Source: Hylemonella gracilis (GTDB lineage Bacteria; Pseudomonadota; Gammaproteobacteria; Burkholderiales; Burkholderiaceae_C). Taken from it: a stretch of DNA of 64,000 nucleotides. The stretch spans positions 1,203,501 to 1,267,500 of the forward strand of contig NZ_CP031395.1 in NCBI RefSeq assembly GCF_004328645.1, given 5' to 3'. The translations under genes were made by a program, and so were the position numbers. Positions 43,293 to 60,218 of this stretch are shown piece by piece. The notes beneath the pieces are model-generated. The model had not been told where the DNA came from. It saw nothing but the letters and a program-made list of their open reading frames with translations, and searched no databases. Every line of letters begins with the position of its first letter. Position 1 is the stretch's first letter.

Positions 43293-44897
43293 TTACTTGC
43301 GGAACATCGCCAGCATGCGGCGCGTGACGGCGAAGCCGCCGAACATGTTGACGGCCGTGAGCACCAGGGCGGCGGCGGCCAGCCAGCGGATCAGCCCATC
43401 GGGCCGGCTTGCGCCTTCGGCGATCGGCGGCGCGATTTGCACCAACGCGCCGATGGCGATGATGCTGGAGATGGCGTTGGTCACACTCATCAGCGGCGTG
43501 TGCAGCGCCGGAGTGACGTTCCAAACCACCATGTAGCCGATGAAGCAGGCCAGCACGAAGACCGTGAAATGGCCCACGAAGGCCGCAGGTGCGTAGGCAC
43601 CGATGAACCAGAAGGCCAGCGCGCCCAGCGCGAAGACGATGGCCAGGGTACGGGCGGGCATGGGAGCGCCCGGGCCATGGCCATGGGCGGCGGCTTTTTT
43701 CTCAGGCGCGGCGGCTGGCTTGGGGGCGGGCGCGGCGGTCTTGATCGGCGGCGCGGGCCAGGTGATGACGCCGTCCTTGACGACGGTGAGGCCGCGGATG
43801 GCGTCGTCCTCCATGTTGACGTGCATGACACCATCCTTGGTCTTGCACAGCTCCTCGGTCAGGCGGAACAGATTGGTGGCGTAGAGCGAGGACGACTGCT
43901 TGGCCAGGCGGCTCACCAGATCGGTGTAGCCGATGATCGTGACGCCATGCTTGACCACGACCCGTCCCGGCTCGGTCAGCTCGCAGTTGCCGCCCTGTTC
44001 GGCGGCCATGTCCACGATGACGCTGCCCGGCTTCATGCTCTGGACCATCTCGGCCGTGATCAGCTTGGGCGCCGGCTTGCCTGGGATCAGCGCCGTGGTG
44101 ATGATGATGTCCACCTCGCGGGCTTGCTGCGCGTACATCGCGCGCTGCGCGGCCTGGAAGCCCTCGCTCATGACCTTGGCATAACCGCCGCCGCCCGAGC
44201 CTTCTTCTTCGTAATCGACCTTGACGAATTCACCGCCCAGCGAGATGACCTGATCGGCCACCTCGGCGCGTGTGTCGTTGGCGCGCACCATGGCGCCCAG
44301 GCCGGCCGCCGCGCCGATGGCCGCGAGGCCGGCCACGCCGGCGCCGGCGATGAAGACCTTGGCCGGCGGCACCTTGCCTGCCGCCGTGATCTGGCCGTTG
44401 AAGAAACGGCCGAAGGCGTTGGCGGCTTCGATCACGGCGCGGTAGCCGGCGACGCTGGCCTGGGAGGTCAGGGCGTCCATCTTCTGGGCGCGCGACAGGG
44501 TGCGCGGCAGGCAGTCGATGGCCAGCACCGTGGCCCTGCGCGCGGCCAGTTGCTGCATCAGATCGGGGTTCTGCGCGGGCCAGACGAAGCCGAGCAGCGC
44601 CGCGCCCTCGCGCAACTGGCCGACTTCGGCCGGGGTCGGGGGGCGGACCTTGAACACCACGTCCGCCTTCGACCACAGCGCGGTGGCGTCCGGGGCGATG
44701 TCCGCGCCTGCGGCGCGGAAGGCCTCGTCGCTGAAATTCGCCGCCGCGCCCGCGCCGGATTCGACCGTGACCGCGAAGCCGAGCTTGACGAGTTTTTCCA
44801 CCACCTCGGGCGAGGTGGCCACGCGCTGCTCACCGGGGAAGATTTCCCGCGGCACGCCGATGCGCTGGGCGACCGGGGTCGTTGAACCAGTCTGCAT
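43293..44897 (-). CDS. pntA: NAD(P) transhydrogenase subunit alpha (full length)
   Basis: 534 aa, the E. coli-type single alpha subunit. The NAD-binding domain I is visible as IGVPREIFPGEQRVATSP and VFIAGAGVAGLAAIGAAAGLGA. An Ala/Pro/Lys/His-rich linker (about 390-420) joins it to four C-terminal membrane helices, with WNVTPALHTPLMSVTNAIS. Many bacteria split this protein in two; here it is fused. It is divergent from the Nudix gene, with CAGGAGA before its ATG. Confidence 0.95.
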   Translation of the reverse strand: MQTGSTTPVAQRIGVPREIFPGEQRVATSPEVVEKLVKLGFAVTVESGAGAAANFSDEAFRAAGADIAPDATALWSKADVVFKVRPPTPAEVGQLREGAALLGFVWPAQNPDLMQQLAARRATVLAIDCLPRTLSRAQKMDALTSQASVAGYRAVIEAANAFGRFFNGQITAAGKVPPAKVFIAGAGVAGLAAIGAAAGLGAMVRANDTRAEVADQVISLGGEFVKVDYEEEGSGGGGYAKVMSEGFQAAQRAMYAQQAREVDIIITTALIPGKPAPKLITAEMVQSMKPGSVIVDMAAEQGGNCELTEPGRVVVKHGVTIIGYTDLVSRLAKQSSSLYATNLFRLTEELCKTKDGVMHVNMEDDAIRGLTVVKDGVITWPAPPIKTAAPAPKPAAAPEKKAAAHGHGPGAPMPARTLAIVFALGALAFWFIGAYAPAAFVGHFTVFVLACFIGYMVVWNVTPALHTPLMSVTNAISSIIAIGALVQIAPPIAEGASRPDGLIRWLAAAALVLTAVNMFGGFAVTRRMLAMFRK

Positions 44898-45062
44898 GCA
44901 TATCTCCTGGATAGTTTTGAAAACCGTCGCGCGGGTTCGCCCGGAGGCCGCTCCATGCCGGGTGGGATGCCGCTCTATTGGGCGGCTAGCTTACCCGAGA
45001 AACCCATGTCTCCCAGGAATAAGCGCTATGGCGTTCCCGGGCGTTTCATAGAATTCCGTCCC

Positions 45063-45557
45063 ATGAGCATCCGTTGGAATCCCAGCGTCACCGTGGCCGC
45101 CATCATCGAGCGCGCCGGCCGTTATCTGCTGGTGGAGGAGGAGACGCCCGAGGGGCTGCGTCTGAACAACCCGGCCGGCCATCTGGAGCCGGGCGAGTCG
45201 CCGCTGGAAGGCTGCGTGCGCGAGGCGCTGGAGGAAACCACCCATCGCTTCATGCCCACCCACCTGCTGGGCATCTACCTCTCGCGCTTCCAGCGCCAGC
45301 CCCCTGGCGAGGCCGTGCAGGACATCACCTACCTGCGTTTTGCCTACATCGGCGAGCTGGGCGAGGCCGTGGCCGGACGGGTTCTGGACACGGGCATCGT
45401 GCGCACGCTCTGGATGACGCCCGAGGAGATCCGCGCCAGTCATGCACGCCACCGCAGTCCCTTGGTGCTGCGTTGCATGGAAGACCATCTGCGCGGGCAG
45501 CGCCATCCGCTTGACCTGGTCTACACCGACGCGTCGGTGCAATTGATGAACCGTTGA
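45063..45557 (+). CDS. Nudix hydrolase (NudJ-like)
   Basis: Phosphohydrolase of 164 aa. The Nudix box spans 39-61 (GHLEPGESPLEGCVREALEETT), with the REALEE metal-binding helix intact. Similarity is to NudJ, which hydrolyses nucleoside di/triphosphates and thiamine pyrophosphate intermediates. In E. coli nudJ stands next to mnmA; here mnmA is about 12.9 kb downstream on the same strand with a metabolic island between. Start 45063 is preferred over an upstream in-frame ATG. Confidence 0.88.
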   Translation: MSIRWNPSVTVAAIIERAGRYLLVEEETPEGLRLNNPAGHLEPGESPLEGCVREALEETTHRFMPTHLLGIYLSRFQRQPPGEAVQDITYLRFAYIGELGEAVAGRVLDTGIVRTLWMTPEEIRASHARHRSPLVLRCMEDHLRGQRHPLDLVYTDASVQLMNR

Positions 45558-45941
45558 CTGCGGAATTGCGGGCTGTCGCTGTACAGCCCAGTCCATCGGC
45601 GCGGGCTACGCGTCCGCCACCCCGTGCCTCCCGCATCGAGCGGGCGCGCGATGCGGCGGTGTCGGGCAGGCCTGCATGGAGGGCTAGCAGACTGTTGCAA
45701 TTTCTTCGCTGAGTCTGAGTTGGGCGGGCATGAATCATGCAGGCCTGCGATTCAGGTTCATCGACGGAGTGATCCGCGCACGGGGAAGTTGGCATACAAG
45801 AATCAAGAATCGCTGTTCACGGTTTTAAAACTGGAGGACTTCGTGTGTGTGCGAGGCAGCCACTGAGTCCTTCGTGTACCTGGACTCGTTCGGTCATCTG
45901 GTTGTAAGAGTTTGCGAGCAACCTCTAAGCAGGGAGTACAC
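45558..45941. other. Gene-free region at the left edge of the accessory island
   Basis: 384 bases without a convincing gene. Just after the Nudix stop is a 7-bp GC-rich hairpin (45571-45577 with 45584-45590) lacking a T run, possibly a weak terminator. Bases 45785-45840 are AT-rich and may hold the chemoreceptor promoter; no sigma-28 site was recognised. No direct repeats, integrase or attachment site were seen. Confidence 0.45.
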
Positions 45942-47567
45942 ATGCACTTGAACGGTTTGAAAATTGGAACTCGTCTGGCAATCGCGTTTGCTCTGGTGCT
46001 TGCCTTGCTGCTGGCCAGTCTGGCGGCCGGCCTGACGGTGCTGAGCCGGGTGAGTCGTACCTTGAATCAGGTGGTGGAAGAACGGTACGCCCAGATCGCA
46101 CTCAGCAATGCGATCAAGACGGTGGGCGACAAAGGCATCATCACGATCGGCCGCATCCTGCTGGCCAACACGGCCGAGCAGACCAAGAAGTACATGGACG
46201 ACTACGCGGCCTTGCGGAGCATCAACACCGAGAATTTCGCCAAATTCGAAAAAACCCTGAACAACGACGACAGCAAGGCGATCTTTGCCGAGCAGTCGGA
46301 GGCCCGCAAAGCCTACGGAGGTGCGGTGCGCAGCTTCTTCGCTCTGATGGCTGACGGCAAGCGCGAGGAGGCCATGGCGGTCTACCAGGGTGACATGGCC
46401 AACCTGCAACCGCGCTACTACGCCTTGATCGACAAGATGGTGACGTACCAGGAACAGGGCATGATCACCGATGTGGCCCAGGCCAAGAGTGCGACCAATG
46501 CCGCGCGCATCGGCATGCTGGCCTTTTCGGCCGTCGCGGTGCTGCTGGGAATTGCAACGGCGGTCTTGATCACGCGTTCGATCACCCGACCGATAGACCG
46601 GGCCATCTCGATGGCAGAGTCAGTGGCCAAAGGCAATCTCACCTACAAGGTCACGGACGACAGCAAGGACGAAGTAGGCCGCCTGATCGGAGCACTCAAG
46701 CACATGGTGGACAACTTGCACCGCATCGTTTCGGAGGTGCGGACTGGGGCGGATACCATCGCCAGTGCCTCGCACCAAGTGACATTGGGCAATCAGGATC
46801 TTTCCGCCCGCACCGAGCAGCAGGCCAGTGCGCTCGAAGAGACGGCAGCCGCGATGGAGCAACTGACTTCAGCGATCAAGCTCAGCGCCGACAATGCCAA
46901 TCAGGCCAACTCCCTGGCCCTGGAGGCTTCATCCGTGGCCGTCCAGGGCGGTGAGGTCGTGGGCCAGGTGGTGGCCACGATGAGCTCCATCACGGATTCC
47001 TCCAAGCGCATCGTCGAGATCATCAGCGTGATCGACGGCATCGCCTTCCAGACCAATATCCTGGCCCTGAACGCCGCAGTCGAAGCGGCCCGCGCGGGCG
47101 ATCATGGGCGGGGCTTTGCGGTGGTGGCTGCCGAGGTCCGTACTCTGGCGCAGCGCAGTGCCGTGGCGGCCAAGGAGATCAAATCCTTGATCGACAACTC
47201 GGTGCAGCAGGTCGACCGAGGAAGCGCGATGGTGGATCATGCCGGCGCGACGATGAAGCAGGTGGTTGCCAGCATCAAGCAGGTCAGCAGCATCGTGGCC
47301 GAAATCAGTGCCTCCAGCCGCGAGCAGAGTCAGGGTATCGAGCAGTTGAACGACGCCATCGTGCAGATGGACGACTCGACACAGAAGAACGCGGCCATGG
47401 TGGAGGAAAGCACGGCAGCGGCACGGTCGCTGCAGGATCAGGCCAACCAGCTCAACGAAGTGGTGCGAGCCTTCGTGCTGAGTCAATCGGCCCAGCCTTC
47501 ACGGCAACTGCTGGCGGCAGTGCCGGCACCAGCGCTAGGTTTTTCAGGCGGAGACAACAGCCGGTAG
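45942..47567 (+). CDS. Methyl-accepting chemotaxis protein (4HB-type sensor)
   Basis: Chemoreceptor of 541 aa. TM1 is at about 10-33, a four-helix-bundle periplasmic sensor follows, TM2 is at about 185-207, then a HAMP ([11 protein letters not shown] on) and a cytoplasmic signalling hairpin with tip [20 protein letters not shown]. The C-terminus ends GGDNSR without an NWETF-type CheR docking pentapeptide. Start 45942 has AGGGAG 8 bases upstream. It opens the island of carboxylic-acid genes, so its ligand may be the same substrate; that is a guess from position. Confidence 0.9.
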
Positions 47568-47723
47568 ACCGACCGGCATGATTCCCGATCTGCGTCCTGC
47601 GACAGGGGCGCAATCGGGGCCCTGCCATCCATGGCATGCGGCGCCCCAGAACGCGCCCCCATGGCGAACCTCAGAACGCGCGAGCGGCGTGGGTTCGGTG
47701 CCATTTGCTTTTGGGAGGAAGCC

Positions 47724-50354
47724 ATGCAAAGCCTGTCACCCGTGCAGCAGTCGTCGCTGCATCGTTCTCTTTTCGATCCCGGTCATCCCATCGCAGAAGA
47801 GCCTGATCGGATCGTGAGTCAGCGCGTCCGTCCGGGCGTGCTGCGCCTGCTCGACGCCTTCCGCCAGCATGGTTACCGATCTTCCGTGCTCGACCCCTTG
47901 GAATCTGCGCCGGTGGCCGAGGCGGCGCTGCTGACGCCGGAACGCTTCGGATTGGTGCACGGCGACGCGGTCAGCGAAGACGATTCGCCGTTGCTGGGCG
48001 CGAAGACGGTGCAGGAATTGACGTCCGCGCTGCACGCCGTGTATTGCGGCAGCCTCGCACTGGACGCGAGCGCGGTGCGTGATGAGACGCGGTTGGCCTG
48101 GCTGTATGCAGAAATGGAGACCCCGGTGCGTGCGTTGCCACTGCCGGCCGCCATGACCGGTACCGGCTTGCTGGCACGGCTTGTGGGCGTGCAGAGCTGG
48201 GAGCACTATGTGGCTCGGCGTTTCCCGAACGCCAAGCGTTTTTCGCTGGAGGGTTGCGAGGCGCTGATACCTCTGCTCGATGTGCTGGTCGCGCAGGCGG
48301 GCGCCTATGGCGTGCGCGAGCTGCTGCTGGGCATGCCGCATCGCGGTCGCATCAATGTACTGGTCAATCTGCTGGGCCGATCTGCACCGGAGTTGCTGAG
48401 CTACTTCGACCCTAAGAACCCGGATCCCGAGCGCCACAAGGACCTGCCGTATCACCTGGGGGCGCGGCATCGGGTCAGCACGCGTCATGGCGACATTGAC
48501 CTGCAGCTTGCCGCCAACCCCTCGCATCTGCAAAGCGTCATGCCGGTGGTGGCCGGCATGGCGCGCGCCAGCCAGGATCACGGCGAGCATCATGCCCCGC
48601 ATCAGACGCTGCCGGTCGTGATGCATGGCGATGCCGCCTTGGCCGGACAAGGCGTGGTGATGGAAACGCTGATGCTGGGTCGCAAGGCGGGCTACACCGT
48701 CGGCGGCACCGTGCACATCGTGATCAACAACCAGGTCGGCTTCACCGAACTGCATGCCATGGACGCGCGACAGCCACGCTACGCCAGCGATGTCGCGCGG
48801 ATGATTGATGCACCCGTGCTGCGCGTCAGCGCGGATGCCCCTGAGCAGGTGCAGCGCGCCGCTGCGATTGCGTTGGCCTACCGCGCACGTTTCGGCGGCG
48901 ATGTCTTCATCGATTTGATCGGCTACCGCCGCCTTGGCCATTCCGAACATGATGTGCCGACACTGACCGCCCCGACACGCCAATCCCGCATCGATCAGTT
49001 GCCCACCGTGGTGGATCGCTTCGCCGCTCAGCTCTGCAGTGCAGGACGGGGCAGCGAGCCGGATCTGGCACTTTTCATTACACATTGTCGCGAGCGGGCG
49101 CAGCGGTCGTTTGAGCGCCCGTTGGCGCAAGCCCCCGCACTTGGGCAACACCGCGCAGCGGTAGCTGACCTGCCGGCGCCCGGCTTGGCCCAACTGCAAG
49201 GCATCGTTTCGACGCTGACCCGATTGCCGGACGGTTTTCAGCCACATGCCATGGTGCAGGCCCTGATCCAGGATTGGCAATCCATGTCGGCCAACCGTGA
49301 CGCCCTGTGTGATTGGCGTTTTGCCGAGAACATGGCCTACGCGACACTGCTGCAGGCCGGTATCGGCGTGCGCGTGTCCGGCATGGACGTGCGCCGTGGC
49401 ACCTTCATGCACCGCCAGGCGGTCTGGCATGGCCAGCAGGCAGATGGCCAGGGGCCGGCCGAGTTTCAGCCACTGGACAGACTGCGTGCCGGCCCGGTGC
49501 GCTTCGAGGTCTACAACTCGCTGTTGTCCGAGGAAGCGGTGCTGGGTTTTGAGTATGGCTACAGCCTGCGCGAAGAGCACCGCCTGGCGATCTGGGAGGC
49601 GCAGTTCGGTGATTTCGTCAACGGGGCTCAGGTCTTCATTGACCACTACATTGCATCAGGTGAGGCGAAGTGGGGATTCGCGTCCGGTTTGATGCTATTG
49701 CTGCCACACGGTTACGAGGGTGTCGGCCCCGAGCATTCCAGCGGCTTTCTGGGCCGCTTCCTGCAGCTGTGCGCGCAGGGCAATCTGCAAGTGGCCATGC
49801 CATCCACTGCGGCGCAATGGTTCCATCTGCTGCGTCGCCAAGCCAGTTTGCAGCCGCGCCGACCGCTGGTGGTGATGAGCCCCAAGGGCACGCTGTATGA
49901 GGAGCCTGGTTCTCACACACCGCTGCAGCGGATGCTGGAGGGCGCTTTCGAGCCCGTGCTGGACGATGCCACGGTGAAGTCACCCGCTTCCGTGGAGCGT
50001 GTCGTGTTGTCCAGCGGCAAGCTGCACTACGACCTAGAGCGGGCACGTCAGGCAAGCTCGACTGAGAGCACTGCGCTGCTGCGGTTGGAGCAGCTCTATC
50101 CGTTCCCGCAACTGGCCTTGCAGCGTCTGCTGCAGCGCTACAGCGGCTTGCGGGAGCTGGTGTGGGCACAGGAGGAAGAGCTGAACCAGGGCGCCTGGCC
50201 TTTCATCCGCGACGAACTGACTGCCTTGTGTCCGCAGGGCGTACAGCTGCGCTGCGTCGCCAGGCCCAGCACGGCGACAGGCCCCACCGTATCGCAGGTG
50301 GTCCATCGGGCTGAGCAGCGCCTGCTGGCGATGCAGGCTCTGGGCCTGCAATAG
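47724..50354 (+). CDS. SucA-like 2-oxoacid dehydrogenase E1 component, stand-alone paralogue
   Basis: Thiamine-diphosphate enzyme of 876 aa related to 2-oxoglutarate dehydrogenase E1. Shared motifs: KRFSLEG (171-177), GMPHRGRINVLVN (about 203-215), NPSHLQ (265-270), HGDAALAGQG (301-310) and VINNQVGF (333-340). It departs from E. coli SucA at usually fixed places: YRRHGHNE is YRRLGHSE (401-408), GRGTF is RRGTF and HRHAV is HRQAV. The N-terminal segment that SucA uses to bind E2 is missing. No sucB or lpd is adjacent. Start 47724 has GGGAGG six bases upstream. It may act as a free 2-oxoacid decarboxylase or carboligase; the substrate is unknown. Confidence 0.82.
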   Translation: MQSLSPVQQSSLHRSLFDPGHPIAEEPDRIVSQRVRPGVLRLLDAFRQHGYRSSVLDPLESAPVAEAALLTPERFGLVHGDAVSEDDSPLLGAKTVQELTSALHAVYCGSLALDASAVRDETRLAWLYAEMETPVRALPLPAAMTGTGLLARLVGVQSWEHYVARRFPNAKRFSLEGCEALIPLLDVLVAQAGAYGVRELLLGMPHRGRINVLVNLLGRSAPELLSYFDPKNPDPERHKDLPYHLGARHRVSTRHGDIDLQLAANPSHLQSVMPVVAGMARASQDHGEHHAPHQTLPVVMHGDAALAGQGVVMETLMLGRKAGYTVGGTVHIVINNQVGFTELHAMDARQPRYASDVARMIDAPVLRVSADAPEQVQRAAAIALAYRARFGGDVFIDLIGYRRLGHSEHDVPTLTAPTRQSRIDQLPTVVDRFAAQLCSAGRGSEPDLALFITHCRERAQRSFERPLAQAPALGQHRAAVADLPAPGLAQLQGIVSTLTRLPDGFQPHAMVQALIQDWQSMSANRDALCDWRFAENMAYATLLQAGIGVRVSGMDVRRGTFMHRQAVWHGQQADGQGPAEFQPLDRLRAGPVRFEVYNSLLSEEAVLGFEYGYSLREEHRLAIWEAQFGDFVNGAQVFIDHYIASGEAKWGFASGLMLLLPHGYEGVGPEHSSGFLGRFLQLCAQGNLQVAMPSTAAQWFHLLRRQASLQPRRPLVVMSPKGTLYEEPGSHTPLQRMLEGAFEPVLDDATVKSPASVERVVLSSGKLHYDLERARQASSTESTALLRLEQLYPFPQLALQRLLQRYSGLRELVWAQEEELNQGAWPFIRDELTALCPQGVQLRCVARPSTATGPTVSQVVHRAEQRLLAMQALGLQ

Positions 50355-50753
50355 GTCGGGAGCACCGCAGTTCACGCCCAACACAAGCAGACGCTCCTGT
50401 GGCCGAATCTGATCAGTCTTGGACGAACGACTGATCTGAGGCGAGCGGTCAATTGCGCACGTGTCCAGCAAATGACCGGTAGCAATGACTGCGGTCGATC
50501 GCTCCAGTTGGCCAGCTTCTCAGCATGGGGATCCTGCTTGCTTGGGCTGAAACCGAGCTGCGGGGCCACCGCATCCGCGCGCTGGAAACCCTTGCGCAGG
50601 TCGGGGCAGGGCGGGTAACGCTGCGCCTGCGCCGGGTATCACGATTCGTGAATCCGGCATCAGCGCGCGAGGTCTCTTTCTCCGTAGAAACCAGTGCATC
50701 TCCCCGGAGGGCGCTTCCTATACTGGATCGAACGGAGATTGCGAGGAGACCTC
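50355..50753 (+). other. Leader region before the first Bug receptor
   Basis: 399 bases with no convincing gene. It contains a perfect 8-bp inverted repeat at 50411-50418/50429-50436 (GATCAGTC and GACTGATC, ten-base loop), a possible operator or end-of-gene hairpin for the E1 gene. A strong Shine-Dalgarno GAGGAG precedes the receptor ATG. Nothing else was recognised. Confidence 0.5.
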
Positions 50754-51722
50754 ATGAAATTCAAGTCCCTGACTGCGGTCCTGGGCGCCGCGCTGGCCTG
50801 CATGCCTGTGCTCGCGCAGAGCAACTGGCCCGCCAAGCCCATCACGATGGTCGTGGGCTTCGCCGCCGGTGGCGCCACCGACGCGGTGGCGCGCATCATC
50901 GCCAAACACCTGGGGGACGAGCTCAAGACCAATGTGGTGGTGGACAACAAGGCTGGCGCAGGCGGCAACATCGCTACCGAGTTGGTGGCACGCGCCGAGG
51001 CGGACGGCTACACCATCCTGCTGGGCAGCGTGGGCTCGCTCACCGTGGCGCCGCATCTGGTCGCCAAGCTGCCTTACAAGCCGCTGGAGGATTTCGCGCC
51101 TGTCACGATGGCTGTGGTCTTCTCGAATGTGCTTGTGGTCAAGCCCGACCTGCCTGTCCACACTCTGGCCGAGTACATCGCGCTGGCCAAGAAGGAGCCC
51201 GGCAAACTGTCCTATGCATCACCCGGCATCGGCGGTGCGGGCCATCTGGCCGGTGAATTGCTCAAACTGCGCGCCGGCATCGATGTCACCCACGTGGCTT
51301 TCAAGGGGGGTGGCCCGGCCATGCTGGCTCTGTTGGGCGGGCAGATCGATTCCTTCATGTCTACCCCGCCCACGGCCGGCCCGCACATCAAGACGGGCAA
51401 GGTACGCGCTTTGGCTACCACGGGCGCCAAGCGTGACCCACTGATGCCCGATGTGCCGACGGTGGCCGAGCAAGGCTTTCCCGGCTTCGACACGTTGAAC
51501 TGGTATGCCTACGTGGTCCCGGTCAAGACGCCCAAGCCCATCGTGGAGCGGTTCAGCAAGGCACTGGTCAAGATCCTCAGCAACCCCGATGTGGTTCGGG
51601 AGCTCGAACTCAAGGGCCTGTCTCCCAGCCCAGGTACCCCTGCAGAGCTCGCGGCTTACATGAAGCGTGAGTACGACACCTGGGCCGAGGTGGTCAGCAA
51701 GGCCGGCATCAAGCCGGAATGA
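50754..51722 (+). CDS. Bug/TctC-family periplasmic solute receptor 1
   Basis: Tripartite tricarboxylate transporter receptor of 322 aa. A Sec signal peptide ends near VLAQS. Mature-chain marks: WPAKPITMVVGFAAGGATDAVAR, then NKAGAGGNIATELVARAEADGY, then PHIKTGKVRALATTG and the C-terminal EYDTWAEVVSKAGIKPE. Such receptors bind carboxylates with high affinity. No TctA/TctB membrane genes are nearby, as for many burkholderial Bug proteins. GAGGAG lies upstream of ATG 50754. It is followed by a second receptor. Confidence 0.92.
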   Translation: MKFKSLTAVLGAALACMPVLAQSNWPAKPITMVVGFAAGGATDAVARIIAKHLGDELKTNVVVDNKAGAGGNIATELVARAEADGYTILLGSVGSLTVAPHLVAKLPYKPLEDFAPVTMAVVFSNVLVVKPDLPVHTLAEYIALAKKEPGKLSYASPGIGGAGHLAGELLKLRAGIDVTHVAFKGGGPAMLALLGGQIDSFMSTPPTAGPHIKTGKVRALATTGAKRDPLMPDVPTVAEQGFPGFDTLNWYAYVVPVKTPKPIVERFSKALVKILSNPDVVRELELKGLSPSPGTPAELAAYMKREYDTWAEVVSKAGIKPE

Positions 51723-51785
51723 ACGAATCTATCCGACAAGAAAAGAAGGGGACGCGTCCCGCGTCCCGGCAATAAGGAGACTCTC

Positions 51786-52784
51786 ATGCAACGTGATCAC
51801 GAAACCCTGACCCGGCGCGATGGCCTGAAATGGGTGGGAGCGGTCGGCCTGTCGGCCATTGCCGGTCTGCCGGCCCGTGCCGAGGAGGCCTGGCCCAGCA
51901 AGCCCATCCGCTGGATTCAACCCTTTGCCCCGGGCGGCACATCCAGCATCGTGGCGCGCGTTATCGCCAACGAGATCACGAAGCAGACCGGCGCTGCCTT
52001 CGTCATCGAGAACAAGGGCGGCGGCGGCGGTGTGCCGGCCATGCAGGAATTGCTACGGGCGCCGGCCGATGGCTACAGCTTCATCATGAGCCATATCGGC
52101 CTGCTGGCGGTCAACCCGCTGATCTACCCGGACGCCGGTTACGACGTGAACAAGGACTTCGTGCCCGTGACCCTGGTCAACCGCCTGCCCAGCCTCTTTG
52201 TCGTTCACAAGGATGTGCCGGCAACCGATATCAAGTCTTTTCTCGCGTATGCCAAGACGCGGTCCGGTCTGCTCAATTACGCCTCGGCGGGCAATGCCAG
52301 TGCCGGCCATCTGGCCATCGAGGCGCTCAAGCTCGCGACCGGGCTGTCCATCATGCACGTGCCCTACCGCGGCACCGGTCCCGCGCTCAACGACGTGCTC
52401 GCCGGGCGGTGCGAGTTGTTCTCGGCCGGCACACCGGCCTTGCTGCCGCACATCCAGAGCGGTGCCTTGCGCTGCATCGGCGTGGGCTCACCCAAGCGCA
52501 TTTCCGCCTTGCCCGACGTGCCCGCGATCGCCGAGCTCTACCCCGGCTTCGAAACCGAGCAGTGGTACGGCATCCACGCCCGTGCTGGCACGCCGCGCAA
52601 CATCATCCTGCGCATGCAGAAGGAAGTCGCGAAAGCCCTGAATGCGCCCGAGGTCGTGGCCCGGCACGAATCCGAAAGCGCCACGCCGGGCGGCGGCTCG
52701 CCGGAAGACTTCGGCCGATTCGTGCGTCAACAGCAGGTGCGCTGGAAGGAAGTGGTGCTCAAGGCCGGGATCAAGGCTGAATAA
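51786..52784 (+). CDS. Bug/TctC-family periplasmic solute receptor 2
   Basis: Second receptor of the same family, 332 aa. Its signal region contains TRRDGLKWVG before a hydrophobic stretch ending ARA, which resembles a twin-arginine signal more than the Sec signal of its neighbour. Family marks are WPSKPIRWIQPFAPGGTSS, NKGGGGGVPAMQELL, HVPYRGTGPALNDVLAG and the terminal WKEVVLKAGIKAE. AAGGAG lies upstream of ATG 51786. It ends two bases from the convergent dehydrogenase. The sequence is clearly divergent from receptor 1, so a recent duplication is unlikely. Confidence 0.9.
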   Translation: MQRDHETLTRRDGLKWVGAVGLSAIAGLPARAEEAWPSKPIRWIQPFAPGGTSSIVARVIANEITKQTGAAFVIENKGGGGGVPAMQELLRAPADGYSFIMSHIGLLAVNPLIYPDAGYDVNKDFVPVTLVNRLPSLFVVHKDVPATDIKSFLAYAKTRSGLLNYASAGNASAGHLAIEALKLATGLSIMHVPYRGTGPALNDVLAGRCELFSAGTPALLPHIQSGALRCIGVGSPKRISALPDVPAIAELYPGFETEQWYGIHARAGTPRNIILRMQKEVAKALNAPEVVARHESESATPGGGSPEDFGRFVRQQQVRWKEVVLKAGIKAE

Positions 52785-52786
52785 GC

Positions 52787-53824
52787 TCAAGGCCGAGCAG
52801 GCGCCGCTCCCATTGCCGGATGCGCCAAGTTCACCAGGGCGCGTCCGGTGCACCAGCGCGCCAGGTTGTCGAGGAACAGCGCGGCGACGCGCTGTTCGTG
52901 GCCGCTGAAATGCCCCGCCGTGTGGGGCGTGGCGATCACGTTCGGCAAATCCCAGAGCGGCGAGGTGGCGGGCAGCGGTTCATGTTCGTACACATCGAGG
53001 AAGGCGCCGCCCAGGTGGCCCGATCGCAGCGCGGCGATCAGGTCTGCTTCCACCACCACCGCACCACGCGACACATTGATCAGTTGCGCGCCCGCCGGCA
53101 GTGCGGCCAGCGCGCGCGCATCCGCCAGGCGGTGCGTGCGCTCGGTCAGCGGGCAGGCCAGCAGCAGCCAGTTAGTGCCTGGCAGGTGGGCATGGAAATC
53201 GTCGTAGCCGACAAACTCGACACCGCCCAGCGCAGGCGCGGCCTGCCTGCGCACGACCACGACCTTCAGGCCCAGGGCCAGCAGCAGAGCGGCGATGCGC
53301 TGGCCGATCGGCCCCCAACCCACCAGCAGGGCGGTCTGCCCCGCCACCGAGGGCGGCGGATCGTTCAGCAGCGGCGCCCAGCGGTGTTCGCGCTGTGCCG
53401 CCATCAGTTGCGGCAGGCGCCGCGCCAGCGCCAGCAGTCCGGCCAGCATGCTCTGCGCCACGACGTCGGCGTTCGCACCCGAAGACGTCGTGACGTGCAC
53501 GCCGCGTGCATGCAACTCCATGTAGATGTCGCGGTCGGTCCCCGCCGAATGGACATGAACCCAGCGCAGGCCTTGCGACCTGCTCAGCACTTCGTAGCAT
53601 GCGCGCAGCGCGGGGGCGATCTCGTGCTTGGTGGACAGGCCCGTGATGTCGCGCGAGATGAAGGCGATGTCGATGTCATCGCGTGCCCCGGTCACTGCCG
53701 ACTCGGTGGTGACGAACTCGAGCGCGTCCCGTCCATGCTCGGCCAGCACGTGTTCGATGTCCGCGCGCCAGCGCGTCAGTGCCTGCCGCGACAGCAGGAT
53801 GCGCAGAGGAAGCGACGAGTTCAC
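52787..53824 (-). CDS. D-2-hydroxyacid dehydrogenase (NAD-dependent)
   Basis: Reduces 2-oxo acids to D-2-hydroxy acids or the reverse; 345 aa. The NAD motif is GWGPIG (about 168-173). The catalytic set is Arg in NVSRGAVV, Glu in LDVYEHEPLP and His in TPHTAGHFSG. It resembles the glyoxylate/hydroxypyruvate reductase branch. Last gene of the - strand run lysR-tcuA-tcuB-aldolase-dehydrogenase, starting 7 bases after the aldolase. The substrate is unknown; island context suggests a hydroxy-di- or tricarboxylate. Confidence 0.87.
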   Translation of the reverse strand: MNSSLPLRILLSRQALTRWRADIEHVLAEHGRDALEFVTTESAVTGARDDIDIAFISRDITGLSTKHEIAPALRACYEVLSRSQGLRWVHVHSAGTDRDIYMELHARGVHVTTSSGANADVVAQSMLAGLLALARRLPQLMAAQREHRWAPLLNDPPPSVAGQTALLVGWGPIGQRIAALLLALGLKVVVVRRQAAPALGGVEFVGYDDFHAHLPGTNWLLLACPLTERTHRLADARALAALPAGAQLINVSRGAVVVEADLIAALRSGHLGGAFLDVYEHEPLPATSPLWDLPNVIATPHTAGHFSGHEQRVAALFLDNLARWCTGRALVNLAHPAMGAAPARP

Positions 53825-53831
53825 GACTGCC

Positions 53832-54620
53832 TCAGGTCTTGTAGCCCGGATCCAGGCGGTCGAGCTTGCGCAGCAGGGCCGGCCATTCCATCTGACCGTA
53901 GGGGCGGCGCGTGCCTGGCTGATAGTTGTTCCAGGTTTCTTCCAGTACCGGCTGCGGCACCTGCACCAGTGGTGTGTTGCAGGCCATGGCCGCGAGCTGG
54001 CTGCGGCAGGAGAGCTCGAGCCGGTGCATCCAGTTGAAGGCTTCGCCCACGGTGCGGCCCACGACGAGCGCGCCGTGGTTGCGCAGGATGAGCGCTTCGC
54101 CTTGTCCCAGGTCTTTGAGCAGCGATGCCTGCTCGGCCGTGTCCAGCACCACGCCCTGGTAGTCGTGGTAGCCGATCTTGAGGAAACGCATGGCGGTCTG
54201 CGTGATGGGCAGCAGGCCGCACTCCAGCGCCGACACCGCCATCGAAGCCCAGCTGTGCGTGTGGATCACGCAGGCCAGTTCGTGCCGCGCCTCGTGCACG
54301 GCGCTGTGGATCACATAGCCGGCCTTGTTGATGCCGTAATCGAGGTTGCCGAAGTCGGGCTTGGAGAGGATGTTGCCTTCGACGCCGATCTTGACCAGGC
54401 TGGAGGCCGTGATCTCCTCGTACATCATCCCGTAGGCGTTGATGAGGAAGGCGCCGTCCTCGTCCGGCACGCGCATGGAGATGTGGTTGGCCATCATGTC
54501 CGACATGCCGTAAAGGTCCACCAGGCGGTAGCAGGCCGCCAGGTCCACGCGCGCCTGCCACTCGGCCGGCGTGCAGCGCGCCTTCATCGAAGCAATCTTC
54601 AGGCGTCCGTTCTCAACCAT
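53832..54620 (-). CDS. Class II aldolase/adducin family protein
   Basis: 262 aa, metal-dependent aldolase fold. Probable zinc ligands are the two His of CVIHTHSW and the His of LRNHGALVVG. The preceding GYVIHSAVHEARHELA block is typical of the adducin-like branch, where the FucA catalytic Glu is not at its usual spacing, so lyase, epimerase or decarboxylase activity is open. Start ATG 54620 has GAGGAG seven bases upstream, which rules against the GTG two codons earlier. It lies between the dehydrogenase and tcuB. Confidence 0.85.
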   Translation of the reverse strand: MVENGRLKIASMKARCTPAEWQARVDLAACYRLVDLYGMSDMMANHISMRVPDEDGAFLINAYGMMYEEITASSLVKIGVEGNILSKPDFGNLDYGINKAGYVIHSAVHEARHELACVIHTHSWASMAVSALECGLLPITQTAMRFLKIGYHDYQGVVLDTAEQASLLKDLGQGEALILRNHGALVVGRTVGEAFNWMHRLELSCRSQLAAMACNTPLVQVPQPVLEETWNNYQPGTRRPYGQMEWPALLRKLDRLDPGYKT

Positions 54621-54650
54621 GGTCACTCTCCTCGAAATGCGAATGCGGTG

Positions 54651-55850
54651 TCAGTCATCGCCGAGCTTGAGTTGGCTCGGCAGGCGTTTCTCGATGGCCC
54701 ACTTGAGCAGGGCCGCGCTGCGGAAAATGCCGTGTGCGAACTTGCCGTAAGGCAGAGTCAGGAAAAAAGCCATCACGAAACCCAAATGGAGGGCCAGTAG
54801 CGTAGGCATGGCCGCACTGCCGCGCGCCGCCCACAGGCCCAGGCCCGTGAGCGAGGTGAAGAACAGCAGGGCGATGAAGCCGCGGTCCATGGGTTTCTGA
54901 GCAGCGTCGCCGTGCCGTGGATGACGGCGCAGGTTCAGCCGGTATAGGCCCGCCGTGCCGATGCACAGACTCGCGCCGCCCACGGCACCCAGCAACTTGG
55001 GCAGACTGGGCAAGTCGTAGGGCGCCACCCAGCCGAACAGGTAGTGGTAGAGCGTGGCCACGCCGGTCGCTGCGAAGCAGAGCAGGAAGCCGTAGAAGGT
55101 GAGGTGGTGCATCACACGGCGCTGCTTGGTCCAGGCGTCGTCCTCGTTGTGACAACCCTCGCCGTGGCCGCCATCCAAGTAGGTGAGTCGCAGCGCGTCC
55201 TGCGTGGCCTCGGCGGTCGCGCCGACGCGCACGGCGGCGATGGCCGGCGCCGCGTAGTCATGGCCCGGCGTCACCTCGCGCCAGAAGCGGCGCACGCCCA
55301 GGGCCAGGGCCAGCACCGCCAGCAGGAAGATGGGCGCGAACAGGCTCACCAGCAGGTTGTGCGGGAAGATGCCGTAGAAACCCGTCTGCGGCGGCACGTT
55401 CCACAACGTGCCCTTGAGCCAGAGCGTGAACAGCATGAAGAAGGACAGCGCCAAGGCGGCGGCCAGCGCGAGCGTGAGGCCGTTGCGCTGGTAGAGCCGA
55501 CCCAGCGCGGGCGGCCACGCGAAATCCGTGTAAGTCTGCAGGCGCACCTTCGCCATGGCCTGCGGCACGTTGACGGCGAATTCGTGCGGCGGCGCGTACT
55601 GACAGGCGTGCAGGCAGGCGCCGCAGTTGTGGCAGAGATTGGCCAGGTAGTGCACATCGGCCTGTGGGAAGGACAGGCGGCGCGTCATGGCCGGGAACAC
55701 GGCGCAGAAACCCTCGCAGTAGCGGCAGGCGTTGCAGATCTGGAGCTGGCGTGCCACCTCTGCCTCGGCCGCGCCGGGCGCGGAACCATCCGCCGGTTCG
55801 CCATTCGCCAGGGCCAGCGCCTCGCGGGTCAGACGGTCAAGCTGCAACAT
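54651..55850 (-). CDS. tcuB: Tricarballylate-utilisation protein TcuB (CitB family)
   Basis: Membrane electron-transfer protein of 399 aa. Two [4Fe-4S] motifs, [11 protein letters not shown] and [11 protein letters not shown], lie in the first 100 residues or so and are followed by six or more hydrophobic helices with conserved His residues for haem. In Salmonella TcuB re-oxidises the FADH2 of TcuA and passes electrons to the quinone pool. Its start overlaps the end of tcuA by 14 bases. Start 55850 was chosen; the longer frame runs back over tcuA. Confidence 0.9.
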
Positions 55851-57252
55851 GCGCTTGCTCCGTCTTTTTCTCTTGCAAGGCGGCGCGCGCTGCCCCGGTC
55901 CCGGCGATGCGGCCGAAGGCCGTGCCGATGGACATGCCCACGCCGGCCGTGTAACCCTTGCCCAGTACATTGCCGGCCATCATCTCGCCCGCCACGTACA
56001 GGTTCTTGCTGGGCACGCCACCGAAGTGCACGGCCGAGCGTTCGTTGACCTTGAGCCCGAAGTAGGTGAAGGTGATGCCGGGGCGCAGGGCGTAGCCGTA
56101 GTAGGGGCCGGTGTCCAGCGGCAGGGCCCAGTGGGTCTTGGCCGGCGCCAGGTCTTCGGTGTGGCAGTCGTCCAGCGCCGTGTGGTCGAAGCTGCCGACG
56201 CGGCAGGCCGCGTTGTAGGCGTTCAGCGTGTCCATGAAGACGTCGACCGGCAGGCCGAGCTTGCGCGCCAGCTCGGGCAGGCTGTCGGCCTGCACGCCGG
56301 GGAAGACCGGCGGCATGAAGCGGCCGATGGCCTTGCTGTCGATGATGGAGTAGCCGATCTGCTCTGGCTGCTGCGCAACCAGGCGGCCCCAGATGGCGTA
56401 GCGCTTGGGCCAGAAGTCCTCGCCCTCGTCGTAGAAGCGTTCGCCTTGCCGGTTCACCACCACGCCCAGCGAGACGCAGTCGATGCGCGTGCAGATGCCG
56501 CCGTCGTACAGCGGCGCGCGCGCGTCGATGGCCACGCAGTGCGACTGGGTGGGGTCACCGATCATGTCGGCGCCCTGCGCCTGCATGTGCTTGATGAGCA
56601 CGCCCTGGTTGTAGCGCGTGCCGCGGATCAGGAAGTTGTCGGCCGGCCATTCGCCGCGTTCGTTGCGGCCCCAGGCCTCGCGCAGCCATTCGCGGTTCGA
56701 CTCGAAGCCGCCAGCCGCCAGCACGCAGGCGCGCGCCGTGATGCGTTCGCCCTTCACCCAGGCCGCCTGGAACTGGCCGTCCACAATCTCGAGCCGGTCC
56801 ACGGGGGCTTCATAGCGGATCGACACGCCCAGCTTCGCGGCGCTGCGGTAGTAGGCGTTGACCAGGGCCTTGCCGCCGCCCATGAAGAAGGCATTGGTGC
56901 GCGCCACGTGCAGCGCGCCCGACAGCGGGGGCTGGAAGCGCACGCCGTGCTTGCGCATCCAGTCGCGGCAGTGGCTCGAGGCGCGGATGGCCATACGCGC
57001 GAGCTTCTCGTCGGTCAGGCCGCCCGTGACCTTGAGCAGGTCCTGCCAGAACTCCTCCTCGGGGTAGGCGTCCACCAGCACGTCCTGCGGCGCGTCGTGC
57101 ATGCAGCGCAGGTTGCGGGTGTGCATGGAATTGCCGCCGCGCCATTCCTGGGGCGCGGCTTCGAGCAGCAGCACGGAGGCACCGGCCTCGCGCGCCATCA
57201 GGGCGGCGCAGAGGGCGGCGTTGCCGCCGCCTATGACCAGAACATCGATCAT
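55837..57252 (-). CDS. tcuA: FAD-dependent tricarballylate dehydrogenase TcuA
   Basis: Flavoprotein of 471 aa of the fumarate reductase/succinate dehydrogenase group. The FAD motif [11 protein letters not shown] (8-18) is followed by [12 protein letters not shown], a substrate domain, and the C-terminal [22 protein letters not shown]. In Salmonella TcuA oxidises tricarballylate to cis-aconitate. The MFS transporter tcuC found there is absent; two Bug receptors lie nearby instead. It is preceded by a LysR gene with a palindromic site between. The enzyme family is firm; tricarballylate itself is not proven. Confidence 0.9.
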
Positions 57253-57362
57253 GGGAAAAACTCCGGCGCTGGCGCCTGCGGGCCCGACGCTTCAAGACAC
57301 TTCAATGGAACGAACTGTAAGGAGCGCGACGTGGCCGTGGCAGATCATCCCTCGTATGGGGC

Positions 57363-57379
57363 CATCACGATCCGTGATG
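57363..57379. promoter_or_regulatory. LysR-type T-N11-A palindrome upstream of tcuA
   Basis: CATCACGATCCGTGATG is a perfect 7-bp inverted repeat with a three-base spacer and contains T-N11-A (57365-57377), the core of LysR-type operators. It lies about 110 bases before the tcuA start, in the 179-base gap after the LysR gene. It is the likely binding site of that regulator. Confidence 0.65.
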
Positions 57380-57431
57380 CCTCAACGCGACGCGGCCGGG
57401 GCTGCGAAACGGTCGGTGCACTGGCGGCGAC

Positions 57432-58361
57432 TCAGTCCAGCAGACTGGCGCCCACCCAGCGCCCCGAACGTACGAGTTCGCGCGCGCAGTCGGCCAGTAC
57501 CACGCGCGTGGCCAGGGCCGCCGGCGAGAGCTCGTCGTCCGATAGGCTGCACAACACGTTGCGGCGGCGGGCCAGGGGATCGACCAGCTCCGACAGGGCG
57601 AAACGCCCGTCCGCGTCGCTGTAGCGGCTTACGGCCGCCCAAGGTTGCAGCGAGCCGCCGAGACCGGCCTCGACCGCGTCCATCAGCATGGACAGGGAAT
57701 CGATCTCGGCCACCACCAAGGGCTGAATGCGCGCGCGGCCGAATACCGCGTCGAGCGCGCTGCGCAGGCCATGGCCGCCCGTGGGCATGATCAGCGGCTC
57801 ATCTTTGAGCGAGGCCGTGCGCACGTGCGCTGGAGGCTTGCCCTTTAGCGCGTTGCGCGCGCGGATGAAATAGAGCTTTTCTTCCAGCAGCGGCATCATG
57901 CTCCAGCGCCGCCCGGGGTCCGTGTTGAACAGCACGGCCAAGTCCAATTGGCGCGCATTGAGCATGGTCGTGACATGGCCGGACATGCTTTCCACCAAAT
58001 GGAGGCGCACGTCAGGGTAGCGCGCCCGCATGGCGCGCAGCAATGGAATGCCCAGTACGGCCGCCGTGGTCGGCGCCAGGCCCACGCTGACGGAGCCGGA
58101 CAGCCGCGCCTGCTGGGCCGCACGTGCGGCCTGTTCGGCGTGGCGCAGGATCAGTTGGGCTTCGCGGAAAAAGGCCAGGCCGGCCTCCGTCGGCACGACG
58201 CCCTTGCTGCTGCGCTGGAGCAGACGCGTGGACAGCTCGCTTTCGAGCCGGCTGATCTGCTGGCTCAGCGCCGACTGAACCAGATCGAGCTCCAGCGCGG
58301 CGCGGCTCATGGAGCCGAGCTCCACGATGCGTACGAAGTAGCGGATCTGCCGGAGTTCCAT
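57432..58361 (-). CDS. LysR-family regulator (TcuR-like)
   Basis: Transcription factor of 309 aa. The N-terminal winged helix-turn-helix is MELRQIRYFVRIVELGSMSR with ALELDLVQSALSQQISRLE, then GVVPTEAG; an effector-binding domain fills about 90-300. Start 58361 is set by the conserved MELRQIRYF. It is upstream of and co-oriented with tcuA-tcuB, like TcuR in Salmonella, and a T-N11-A palindrome lies between. It probably activates the island when the carboxylate is present. It is divergent from mnmA, at the right edge of the island. Confidence 0.88.
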   Translation of the reverse strand: MELRQIRYFVRIVELGSMSRAALELDLVQSALSQQISRLESELSTRLLQRSSKGVVPTEAGLAFFREAQLILRHAEQAARAAQQARLSGSVSVGLAPTTAAVLGIPLLRAMRARYPDVRLHLVESMSGHVTTMLNARQLDLAVLFNTDPGRRWSMMPLLEEKLYFIRARNALKGKPPAHVRTASLKDEPLIMPTGGHGLRSALDAVFGRARIQPLVVAEIDSLSMLMDAVEAGLGGSLQPWAAVSRYSDADGRFALSELVDPLARRRNVLCSLSDDELSPAALATRVVLADCARELVRSGRWVGASLLD

Positions 58362-58413
58362 CAATAACCTGCTGTCTACGGGATTGTCCTGAGCTTGGGA
58401 TAATCGCACACCT

Positions 58414-59574
58414 ATGAGCAAGGCAGGCAAACAACGTGTGGTGGTGGGACTGAGCGGGGGCGTGGACTCCGCGGTCAGTGCTTATCTGCTGAAAAAGCAG
58501 GGCTACGACGTGGTCGGCATCTTCATGAAAAACTGGGAAGATGACGACGACAACGAGTACTGCTCGTCGAACATCGACTTCGTGGACGCTGCCGCCGTGG
58601 CCGATGTGATCGGCATCGAGATTGAGCATGTCAACTTCGCCGCCGAGTACAAGGACCGCGTCTTCGCCGACTTCTTGCGCGAATACCAGGCCGGCCGCAC
58701 ACCCAACCCGGACGTGCTGTGCAACGCCGAGATCAAGTTCAAGGCCTTCCTCGACCATGCCATGCGCCTGGGCGCCGAGAAGATCGCCACCGGTCACTAC
58801 GCACGGGTGCGCCTCAATGACCAAACCGGCCGGCATGAATTGCTCAAGGGCCTGGACCCGTCCAAGGACCAGAGTTACTTCCTGCACCGCTTGAACCAGG
58901 CACAGCTGAGCAAGACGCTGTTTCCGGTGGGCGAATTGCACAAGACCGAGGTGCGCCGCATTGCCGAAGAAATCGGCCTGCCGAACGCGAAGAAGAAGGA
59001 CTCCACGGGCATCTGCTTCATCGGTGAGCGGCCCTTCCGCGAGTTCCTGAACCGCTACATCCAGAAGGAGCCCGGTCCCATCAAGGACGGCACGCCGCTG
59101 CCTGGCAGCGAGGGCGTCGAGCGCGCACACGGCCGCGTGATCGGCAGGCATGTGGGCCTGAGTTTCTACACTCTGGGCCAGCGCCAGGGCCTGGGCATTG
59201 GCGGCATCAAGGAAAAAGGTGCGCAGAAAGGCGGGGGCGAGCACGCGCCCTGGTTCGTCGCGCGCAAGGACATGGCAAAAAACCAGCTCTGGGTGGTGCA
59301 GGGCCATGACCACCCGCTGCTACAGAGCCACGGCCTGCATGCGCTCGACGCCAGTTGGATCGCTGGCGAGCCGCCCGTGCCCGGTGACTTGCACGCCAAG
59401 GCCCGCTACCGCCAGGCCGACGCGGCCTGCACGCTGGACCAGGTGAAGGCCTCGGGTTTCAGCCTGCGGTTTCCCGAAGCCCAGTGGGCGGTGACACCGG
59501 GCCAGAGTGCCGTGCTGTACGACGGCGACGTCTGCCTGGGCGGCGGCATCATCGACGCCGCGCAAGCCGCGTGA
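58414..59574 (+). CDS. mnmA: tRNA-specific 2-thiouridylase MnmA
   Basis: Thiolates U34 of tRNA-Lys, -Glu and -Gln; 386 aa. PP-loop GLSGGVDSA (12-20), catalytic Cys103 (NPDVLCN) and Cys201 (STGICFIGE) are present. A loop near 268-280 ([14 protein letters not shown]) is longer than in E. coli. No Shine-Dalgarno is seen; GATAAT at 58399-58404, ten bases before the ATG, looks like a -10 box, so the mRNA may be nearly leaderless. It is the expected neighbour of the Nudix gene at 45063 and marks the right edge of the inserted block. It ends three bases from the convergent DUF1840 gene. Confidence 0.96.
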
Positions 59575-59577
59575 GGC

Positions 59578-59907
59578 TCAGACGCCCCAGACCACGTCCT
59601 TGCCCGCCGCCTGGCTGCGGCGCAGCATCTCGATGAAGGGCGTAGCCCGCTGGCGCAGGCTCACGGTCTCCTCGGCCTCGCTGCTGGACTTGGGCTCGAC
59701 TTGCGTCTTGGCCGCTTCCTCCGCAGTTTCCCGTTCTTCCTGTGTGATCGCAGCTTCCAGCGCCGTGATGGCTGTCGGCATCTCGCTGGGGCGCAGGATG
59801 CCACGCCGATCCTCGCCGTACTTGCCAACGATCTGCAGGATGCGCCGGCCTTGTGGCTCCAGCATCAGCAGGTCGGAGGCAGCGCGGGACTGGAACTTGT
59901 AAAGCAT
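59578..59907 (-). CDS. DUF1840 domain protein
   Basis: Cytoplasmic protein of 109 aa. The conserved start MLYKFQSRAASDLLMLEPQG and middle ILQIVGKYGEDRRGIL are typical of DUF1840, a family of betaproteobacteria with no known function. Residues 45-90 form a predicted charged helix rich in Glu. Start 59907 is set by the family N-terminus. It lies 56 bases after the acyl-CoA-binding protein gene on the same strand. Confidence 0.85.
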   Translation of the reverse strand: MLYKFQSRAASDLLMLEPQGRRILQIVGKYGEDRRGILRPSEMPTAITALEAAITQEERETAEEAAKTQVEPKSSSEAEETVSLRQRATPFIEMLRRSQAAGKDVVWGV

Positions 59908-59963
59908 GGTGTGAGGTCGATAAAACGGCGTTTCACGGGTAGACGCGGGAGGCAACGCAACTC

Positions 59964-60218
59964 TCAGCTCAACGACTCAATCAAATCGATGTAGTCCTGC
60001 ATGGCTGCGTCGGCGCTCTTGCCCTTGTGCGCGTTCCATGCATCCCATTTGGCGCGCGCGACCATGTCGGTAAAGCTGGGGCGCGAACCGGTCGCGTCGC
60101 CTTCGGTGGCCTGCTTGTAGAGGGAATAGATCTTGAGCAAGGTGGCGTTGTCAGGCCTCTCGTCCAATTCCTTGGACTGGGCGACGGCGGCTTCAAACTG
60201 TTTTTTCAGATCGCTCAT
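59964..60218 (-). CDS. Acyl-CoA-binding protein
   Basis: Small cytosolic carrier of 84 aa. The ACBP signature is clear: LLKIYSLYKQATEGDATGSRPSF with the acyl-CoA-binding Tyr and Lys residues, and KWDAWNAHKGKSADAAMQDY. It binds medium- to long-chain acyl-CoA esters. Its first 26 bases overlap the end of the upstream TetR-type regulator gene. The phasin two genes upstream suggests a local lipid/PHA theme. Confidence 0.93.
   Translation of the reverse strand: MSDLKKQFEAAVAQSKELDERPDNATLLKIYSLYKQATEGDATGSRPSFTDMVARAKWDAWNAHKGKSADAAMQDYIDLIESLS

Follow-up and report, generated by a model that had tools for sequence, protein, structure and literature searches.

The 64,000-nucleotide window analyzed here, from the single 3,822,245-base contig of a Hylemonella gracilis genome (GCF_004328645.1), carries between nudJ and mnmA a chemoreceptor gene followed by a gene for a stand-alone E1 of the 2-oxoglutarate dehydrogenase (OGDH) type. 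The receptor, a methyl-accepting chemotaxis protein (MCP), lies beside E1 in every genome examined, an arrangement that suggests a coupling of sensing to metabolism for a similar molecule, and the two genes very probably form a functional pair. The constant neighbor of E1 is the chemoreceptor and not the Tcu enzymes encoded farther along in the same 12.9-kb interval, which an earlier note on this DNA had read as one carboxylic acid module. The slot is almost certainly a composite of independent pieces, namely a tcu-type module, two Bug genes, and the MCP-E1 pair. The features of the pair are as follows (window positions).

45942..50354, + strand: portable MCP-E1 unit; DNA similarity to other genomes ends at both borders
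45942..47567, + strand: chemoreceptor (MCP), partner of E1; 4HB_MCP_1/TarH sensor, HAMP, and MCPsignal domains; the open reading frame (ORF) opens at 45912, and 45942 is the probable start
45942..46616, + strand: N-terminal part of MCP, with membrane helices and a four-helix-bundle ligand-binding domain as predicted from alignment A1 and a structure model
47724..50354, + strand: stand-alone OGDH-type E1 without the E2/E3-docking arm; PF00676, PF02779, and PF16870 present, PF16078 absent; the ORF opens at 47631, and 47724 is the probable start

The starts of MCP (45942), E1 (~47724), TcuB (~55850), and LysR (~58361) were chosen from reading frame, family alignment, and overlap. That of E1 was put at 47724 partly because the one stop in the E1 frame of another H. 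gracilis strain (G358) is located ahead of the conserved core. The family search also flagged one stop in the aligned stretch of the G238 E1, a frame that is open when read directly.

Linkage and distribution of the MCP-E1 pair

Positions 44001-60000 of the window were compared as DNA with three other MCP-E1 loci, one in each of the other two H. gracilis strains and one in a Methylibium genome. Identity, at 79-80%, was restricted to 45942-50349, 45949-50354, and 45938-50352 in these three comparisons, and the flanks had no match; the matched stretch in effect opens at the start codon of MCP and closes where E1 ends. None of the repeats detected in 45300-58600, in a search for insertion scars, flanks the pair. 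The linkage is seen from either gene. Starting from E1, the receptor is adjacent at all 20 other E1 places taken from whole genomes (5/5 and 15/15), and within the set of 15 it lies upstream on the same strand in 14 and is divergent in one. Starting from the receptor sensor domain alone, there are 22 places in 21 of 399 family genomes, with E1 adjacent in 22/22. A scan of GTDB genomes with the same domain found E1 adjacent in 32/32 loci, from Hylemonella, Roseateles, Rhizobacter, Methylibium, Paucibacter, Mitsuaria, Pelomonas, Rubrivivax, Aquincola, Ideonella, and other genera. These three sets overlap, and their counts are not additive. The sole divergent, non-tandem arrangement among the 32 loci occurs in Ideonella (L186, 4016-8539), where the two genes are still adjacent. 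Judged from record names, the pair occurs twice in each of six GTDB genomes, and the neighborhoods are of two types (L165/L187, L167/L180, L168/L175, L172/L184, L177/L179, and L181/L189). Both frames are broken in a Roseateles metagenome assembly (Bin5, L160), through decay or assembly error.

Of the 26 genus genomes, only the three from H. gracilis have the receptor sensor domain. A family search that scored two candidates per genome found E1 in 20 of 399 genomes, spread over 11 of 141 genera; it overlooked E1 in G288 and the second copy in G350, both later found by position. At the order level E1 is present in 2 of 399 genomes, the one studied here included, and at the class level in 1 of 369, this genome only. 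Matches to E1 also came from 59 plasmid records; four were examined among the 20 matches listed, and the pair is present in three of these, plasmids of Eleftheria terrae, Caballeronia sp. M1242, and Paraburkholderia phymatum. On the E. terrae plasmid (L142, 13454-20508) it lies one small gene from a very large peptide/polyketide synthase gene. Plasmid pNK81 of Caballeronia NK8 (L145) encodes a SucA-like E1, 40.5% identical, without a receptor of the MCP-E1 type, and was handled as a SucA-like outsider.

Clustering of the ORFs of 37 loci placed MCP in 35 and E1 in 35, with no third gene family beside the pair in more than 9 loci and no E2 or E3 family recurring with it. The best score for a FliA-like flagellar promoter upstream of the receptor exceeded all 30 shuffles in 5 of the 37 loci (L163, L171, L173, L186, and L143) and not in the window, and a common promoter of this kind is thus unsupported. 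Distances between sensor domains correlate with those between E1 proteins (r = 0.85, n = 36 after removal of a locus whose frames are broken), and none of 2000 permutations gave a value as high; the nearest relative by sensor domain differs from that by E1 at 12 of the 36 loci. Over nine pairs, the ratio of nonsynonymous to synonymous substitution rates (dN/dS) was 0.07-0.15 for MCP and 0.09-0.20 for E1. These low ratios indicate that both proteins are maintained, and by this measure MCP and E1 are under purifying selection. The patchy distribution might be taken to mean that the two are chance neighbors, or hitchhike as a pair without joint function. Adjacency at every place, in several contexts, nearly refutes this explanation, and codivergence and selection on both genes also speak against it; we regard it as extremely improbable. 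We found no description of the pair in a literature search that covered mostly papers outside subscription, which makes this weak evidence of novelty.

The E1 protein and the receptor sensor domain

E1 is 42% identical to the SucA (E1o) of the same genome. Its score of 926 bits exceeds the cut-off of 764 of the NCBIfam SucA family NF006914, which is why records name it 2-oxoglutarate dehydrogenase E1. An intact sucA-sucB-lpd cluster lies at another place in the genome, so that E1 is an extra copy, and all 6 E1-bearing genomes of a 150-genome family sample likewise have a second, SucA-like match. E1 shares with SucA the three catalytic Pfam domains, which are complete, and eight of the nine tested active-site positions of 2-oxoglutarate E1. 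Among 22 full-frame E1s (two partial-frame E1s and the plasmid outsider were left out), F227, Y297, F394, D688, E661, H260, H298, and H729 are kept in 22/22, as they are in 15/15 comparison SucA-type proteins. The ninth position, S302, a distal-carboxylate contact of SucA, is Ser in 1 of the 22 E1s versus 15/15 comparison proteins. At the adenosine monophosphate (AMP) site known from E. coli SucA, R337 is retained in 1/22 E1s and R710 in 0/22. Further differences from SucA are an N-terminus that lacks about 60 residues (the exact number varies with the start position assumed) and the loss of the region that docks the other components. PF16078 is found in 0 of 9 E1s, of which four had been trimmed to start at the first aligned residue, versus 61 bits for the SucA of the same genome. 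A YVEEM-type motif is present in 0/22 E1s versus 13/13 usable family SucAs (18 loci tried), by a strict pattern that fails on the L145 outsider too. In human E1o, YVEEM and the peptide just after it are named the most likely contacts to E2o and E3 (PMC8146983).

Unlike sucA, the E1 gene has no sucB or lpd beside it, and MCP alone recurs as its neighbor. A spare copy of the SucA operon was ruled out by the lack of E2/E3 and of the docking arm. Mycobacterial KGD, a 2-oxoglutarate decarboxylase, has a SucA-type E1 core as well and would resemble E1 as a free decarboxylase, but KGD has an extra N-terminal acyltransferase part, which the H. gracilis E1 does not. DHTKD1, the 2-oxoadipate E1a, belongs to the same fold family, and its signature at the 227/394/297 sites is Tyr/Tyr/Ser (Tyr190, Tyr370, and Ser263; PMC8146983). 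These residues are Phe/Phe/Tyr in 22/22 E1s, as in E1o, which rules out an E1a. E1 is probably catalytically active on a 2-oxo dicarboxylate.

The structure model of the receptor sensor domain has a mean predicted local distance difference test (pLDDT) score of 84.8, and the model shows a four-helix-bundle sensor fold, with MCP2201, a citrate/malate chemoreceptor of Comamonas testosteroni, as the closest solved fold. Of the MCP2201 carboxylate contacts, R135, Y138, and Y172 are kept in 37/37 receptors, by a weak sequence match (E 0.008). The receptor differs from MCP2201 at R142, where Val stands in 35/37 and Leu in 2/37 with Arg as the next residue in 36/37, in an invariant Arg/Asn in helix 2, and in the place of its gene beside E1. 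The counterparts of T104/T105/T108 in helix 2 of MCP2201 are R92/x93/T96 by sequence match and L91/R92/N95 by helix ends, a register uncertain by one residue. The protein is a candidate dicarboxylate receptor, a role that we think rather more plausible than not. The 2-oxoglutarate receptor McpK of Pseudomonas aeruginosa resembles it in proposed ligand class. In co-culture, chemotaxis genes of H. gracilis are reported to be among those most strongly up-regulated, and the terms "methyl-accepting" and "oxoglutarate" do not occur in the main text of that report (PMC9948732).

A composite slot between nudJ and mnmA

The interval holds the following features besides the pair. The gene list and coordinates of the earlier note stand, and every named gene type was confirmed with NCBIfam/Pfam profiles.

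44955..45557, + strand: nudJ-like Nudix hydrolase (PF00293), left border of the slot
50694..51722, + strand: Bug/TctC solute receptor 1 (PF03401)
51786..52784, + strand: Bug/TctC solute receptor 2 (PF03401), 38% identical to receptor 1
52787..53824, - strand: D-2-hydroxyacid dehydrogenase of the tcu module (PF02826); 71% identical orthologue at the slot of G145
53832..54626, - strand: class II aldolase/adducin-type protein of the tcu module (PF00596; NF005451, 320 bits, cut-off 207); 92% identical orthologue in G145
54651..55850, - strand: tcuB, Fe-S/membrane electron-transfer partner of TcuA (NF011607, 664 bits, cut-off 524); longest ORF to 55970, probable start 55850
55837..57252, - strand: tcuA, tricarballylate dehydrogenase family dependent on flavin adenine dinucleotide (NF006130, 764 bits, cut-off 369)
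57432..58361, - strand: lysR regulator of the tcu module (PF00126, PF03466), conserved beside mnmA in congeners; longest ORF to 58430, probable start 58361
58414..59574, + strand: mnmA, right border of the slot

mnmA is present in 25 of 26 genus genomes, and we compared the slot in 22 congeners, leaving out G796 and G801 (mnmA at a contig end) and G787 (no mnmA match). The claim that an insert splits nudJ from mnmA holds within the genus, since the two adjoin in 3 of the 22: the intervening sequence measures 89 bp in G358, 86 bp in G298, and 116 bp in G803. The gap is 675 bp in G229, and about 4 kb occupies the slot in G791, both without any query gene. G229, a congener without the E1-linked receptor, has a different MCP directly after mnmA (L134, 5910-7511), whose sensor domain is remotely related (52 bits) and keeps the Arg-Tyr-Tyr positions. 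In 10 congeners tcuA lies beside mnmA, with the same lysR alongside in 7 of the 10; some contigs end within the block, and none of the 10 carries the MCP-E1 receptor. The slot of seven other congeners is filled by a different block, which encodes Bug proteins and an additional LysR, 41-43% identical (L125, L127, L130, L131, L135, L136, and L140, no nudJ in the fetched stretch); the original lysR is still beside mnmA in six of them. In one of the seven, G797 (L136), tcuA comes after this block, at ~17.6 kb. The composition of the slot differs among congeners, and therefore modules come and go at this place. The right half is a tcu-type carboxylate module common there in the genus, the middle holds two Bug genes, and the left part is the separate portable two-gene unit.

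TcuA and TcuB both exceed the curated cut-offs of the tricarballylate utilization (Tcu) families, and these two families are the likeness to the tcuABC tricarballylate operon of Salmonella (PMC10468695). The H. gracilis block differs from that operon in having Bug receptors, an aldolase, and a dehydrogenase, and no tcuC transporter gene was found among the genes between nudJ and mnmA, the region searched. The module order in G145 and G798 is lysR-tcuA-tcuB-aldolase-Bug-dehydrogenase. Nine tcuAB loci from other genera were also compared, each over a fetched stretch of 16-17 kb. Neither aldolase nor dehydrogenase was seen in seven of these stretches; the two genes lie beside tcuB in G002 and ~5 kb from tcuAB in G078, where the pair adjoins a LysR gene of its own (L081, 148-2952), which suggests a separate sub-module.

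A single pathway that acts on one carboxylic acid by way of the receptors, TcuAB, the aldolase, the dehydrogenase, and E1 would account for a slot where every gene type is carboxylate related and all occur together in this H. gracilis. The carboxylate character of the genes and the variable interval stand, and gene order in relatives bears out a variable slot, but tcu and MCP-E1 occur apart from each other and a single coherent module does not survive the comparison. Among 150 family genomes, E1 orthologues (at least 50% identity) are present in 6 and TcuB in 43, and the two co-occur in 2, the present genome and G078, where they are on separate contigs. Congeners have tcu without the receptor, whereas the other two H. 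gracilis strains have nudJ and mnmA closed up and MCP-E1 at another place, without tcu at the slot. The borders of DNA similarity fall at the ends of MCP-E1, and aldolase and dehydrogenase are optional, as the seven loci above indicate. Distribution, location in relatives, and DNA borders thus rule out a 12.9-kb pathway as a working explanation, and we give it very little credence.

A proposed mechanism and its alternatives

We lean toward a reading in which the portable unit couples two functions, taxis toward a dicarboxylate resembling 2-oxoglutarate and the decarboxylation of this compound outside the OGDH complex. The receptor would steer swimming after binding 2-oxoglutarate or a closely related compound in a pocket like that of MCP2201, while E1 in the cytoplasm would be a free thiamine-diphosphate 2-oxo-acid decarboxylase that does not feed the complex and converts 2-oxoglutarate to succinic semialdehyde and CO2, or to a carboligation product. 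Sensing and use of one compound would then be inherited as a unit. Beside the pairing, the selection, and the residue losses seen in the sequences, the ligand, the reaction, the shared substrate, and any physical contact of MCP with E1 are what we infer; that both proteins act on the same compound is put forward tentatively.

The complete core domains of E1, together with sucB and lpd in the same genome, would also suit a purely metabolic isozyme that borrows the housekeeping E2/E3 and makes acyl-coenzyme A, with the receptor merely guiding cells to the substrate. This seems unlikely to us, as the docking region was not found in any E1 checked and neither an E2 nor an E3 family is a recurrent neighbor of the pair. 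The lost docking arm would suit a signaling protein with cytosolic 2-oxoglutarate as its ligand and a direct effect on the receptor or its kinase complex, adding an internal input to the external one. E1 adjoins the receptor everywhere examined with no other recurrent enzyme, and the adjacency outlasts inversion in Ideonella, as such a role would favor. Most catalytic residues are retained, however, which a pure sensor would not need, and no interaction domain is visible, so that we judge this role improbable. Equally improbable, in our view, is an enzyme-coupled chemoreceptor. Here a central-metabolism E1, freed from the complex, would have become the dedicated cytoplasmic partner of one receptor, and the response to a dicarboxylate outside the cell would be set or reset by intracellular 2-oxoglutarate, a carbon/nitrogen signal.

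The MCP-E1 pair lends itself to genetic work, with only two genes, a host in culture, and transcriptome reads in the public domain (PRJNA483535). In these Burkholderiales, genes named "2-oxoglutarate dehydrogenase E1 component" probably do not all act in that complex, which matters for metabolic models. Receptors with genes near a catabolic pathway are already known; a receptor family seen only beside one specialized copy of a tricarboxylic acid cycle enzyme subunit would be a new form of coupling between sensing and metabolism.
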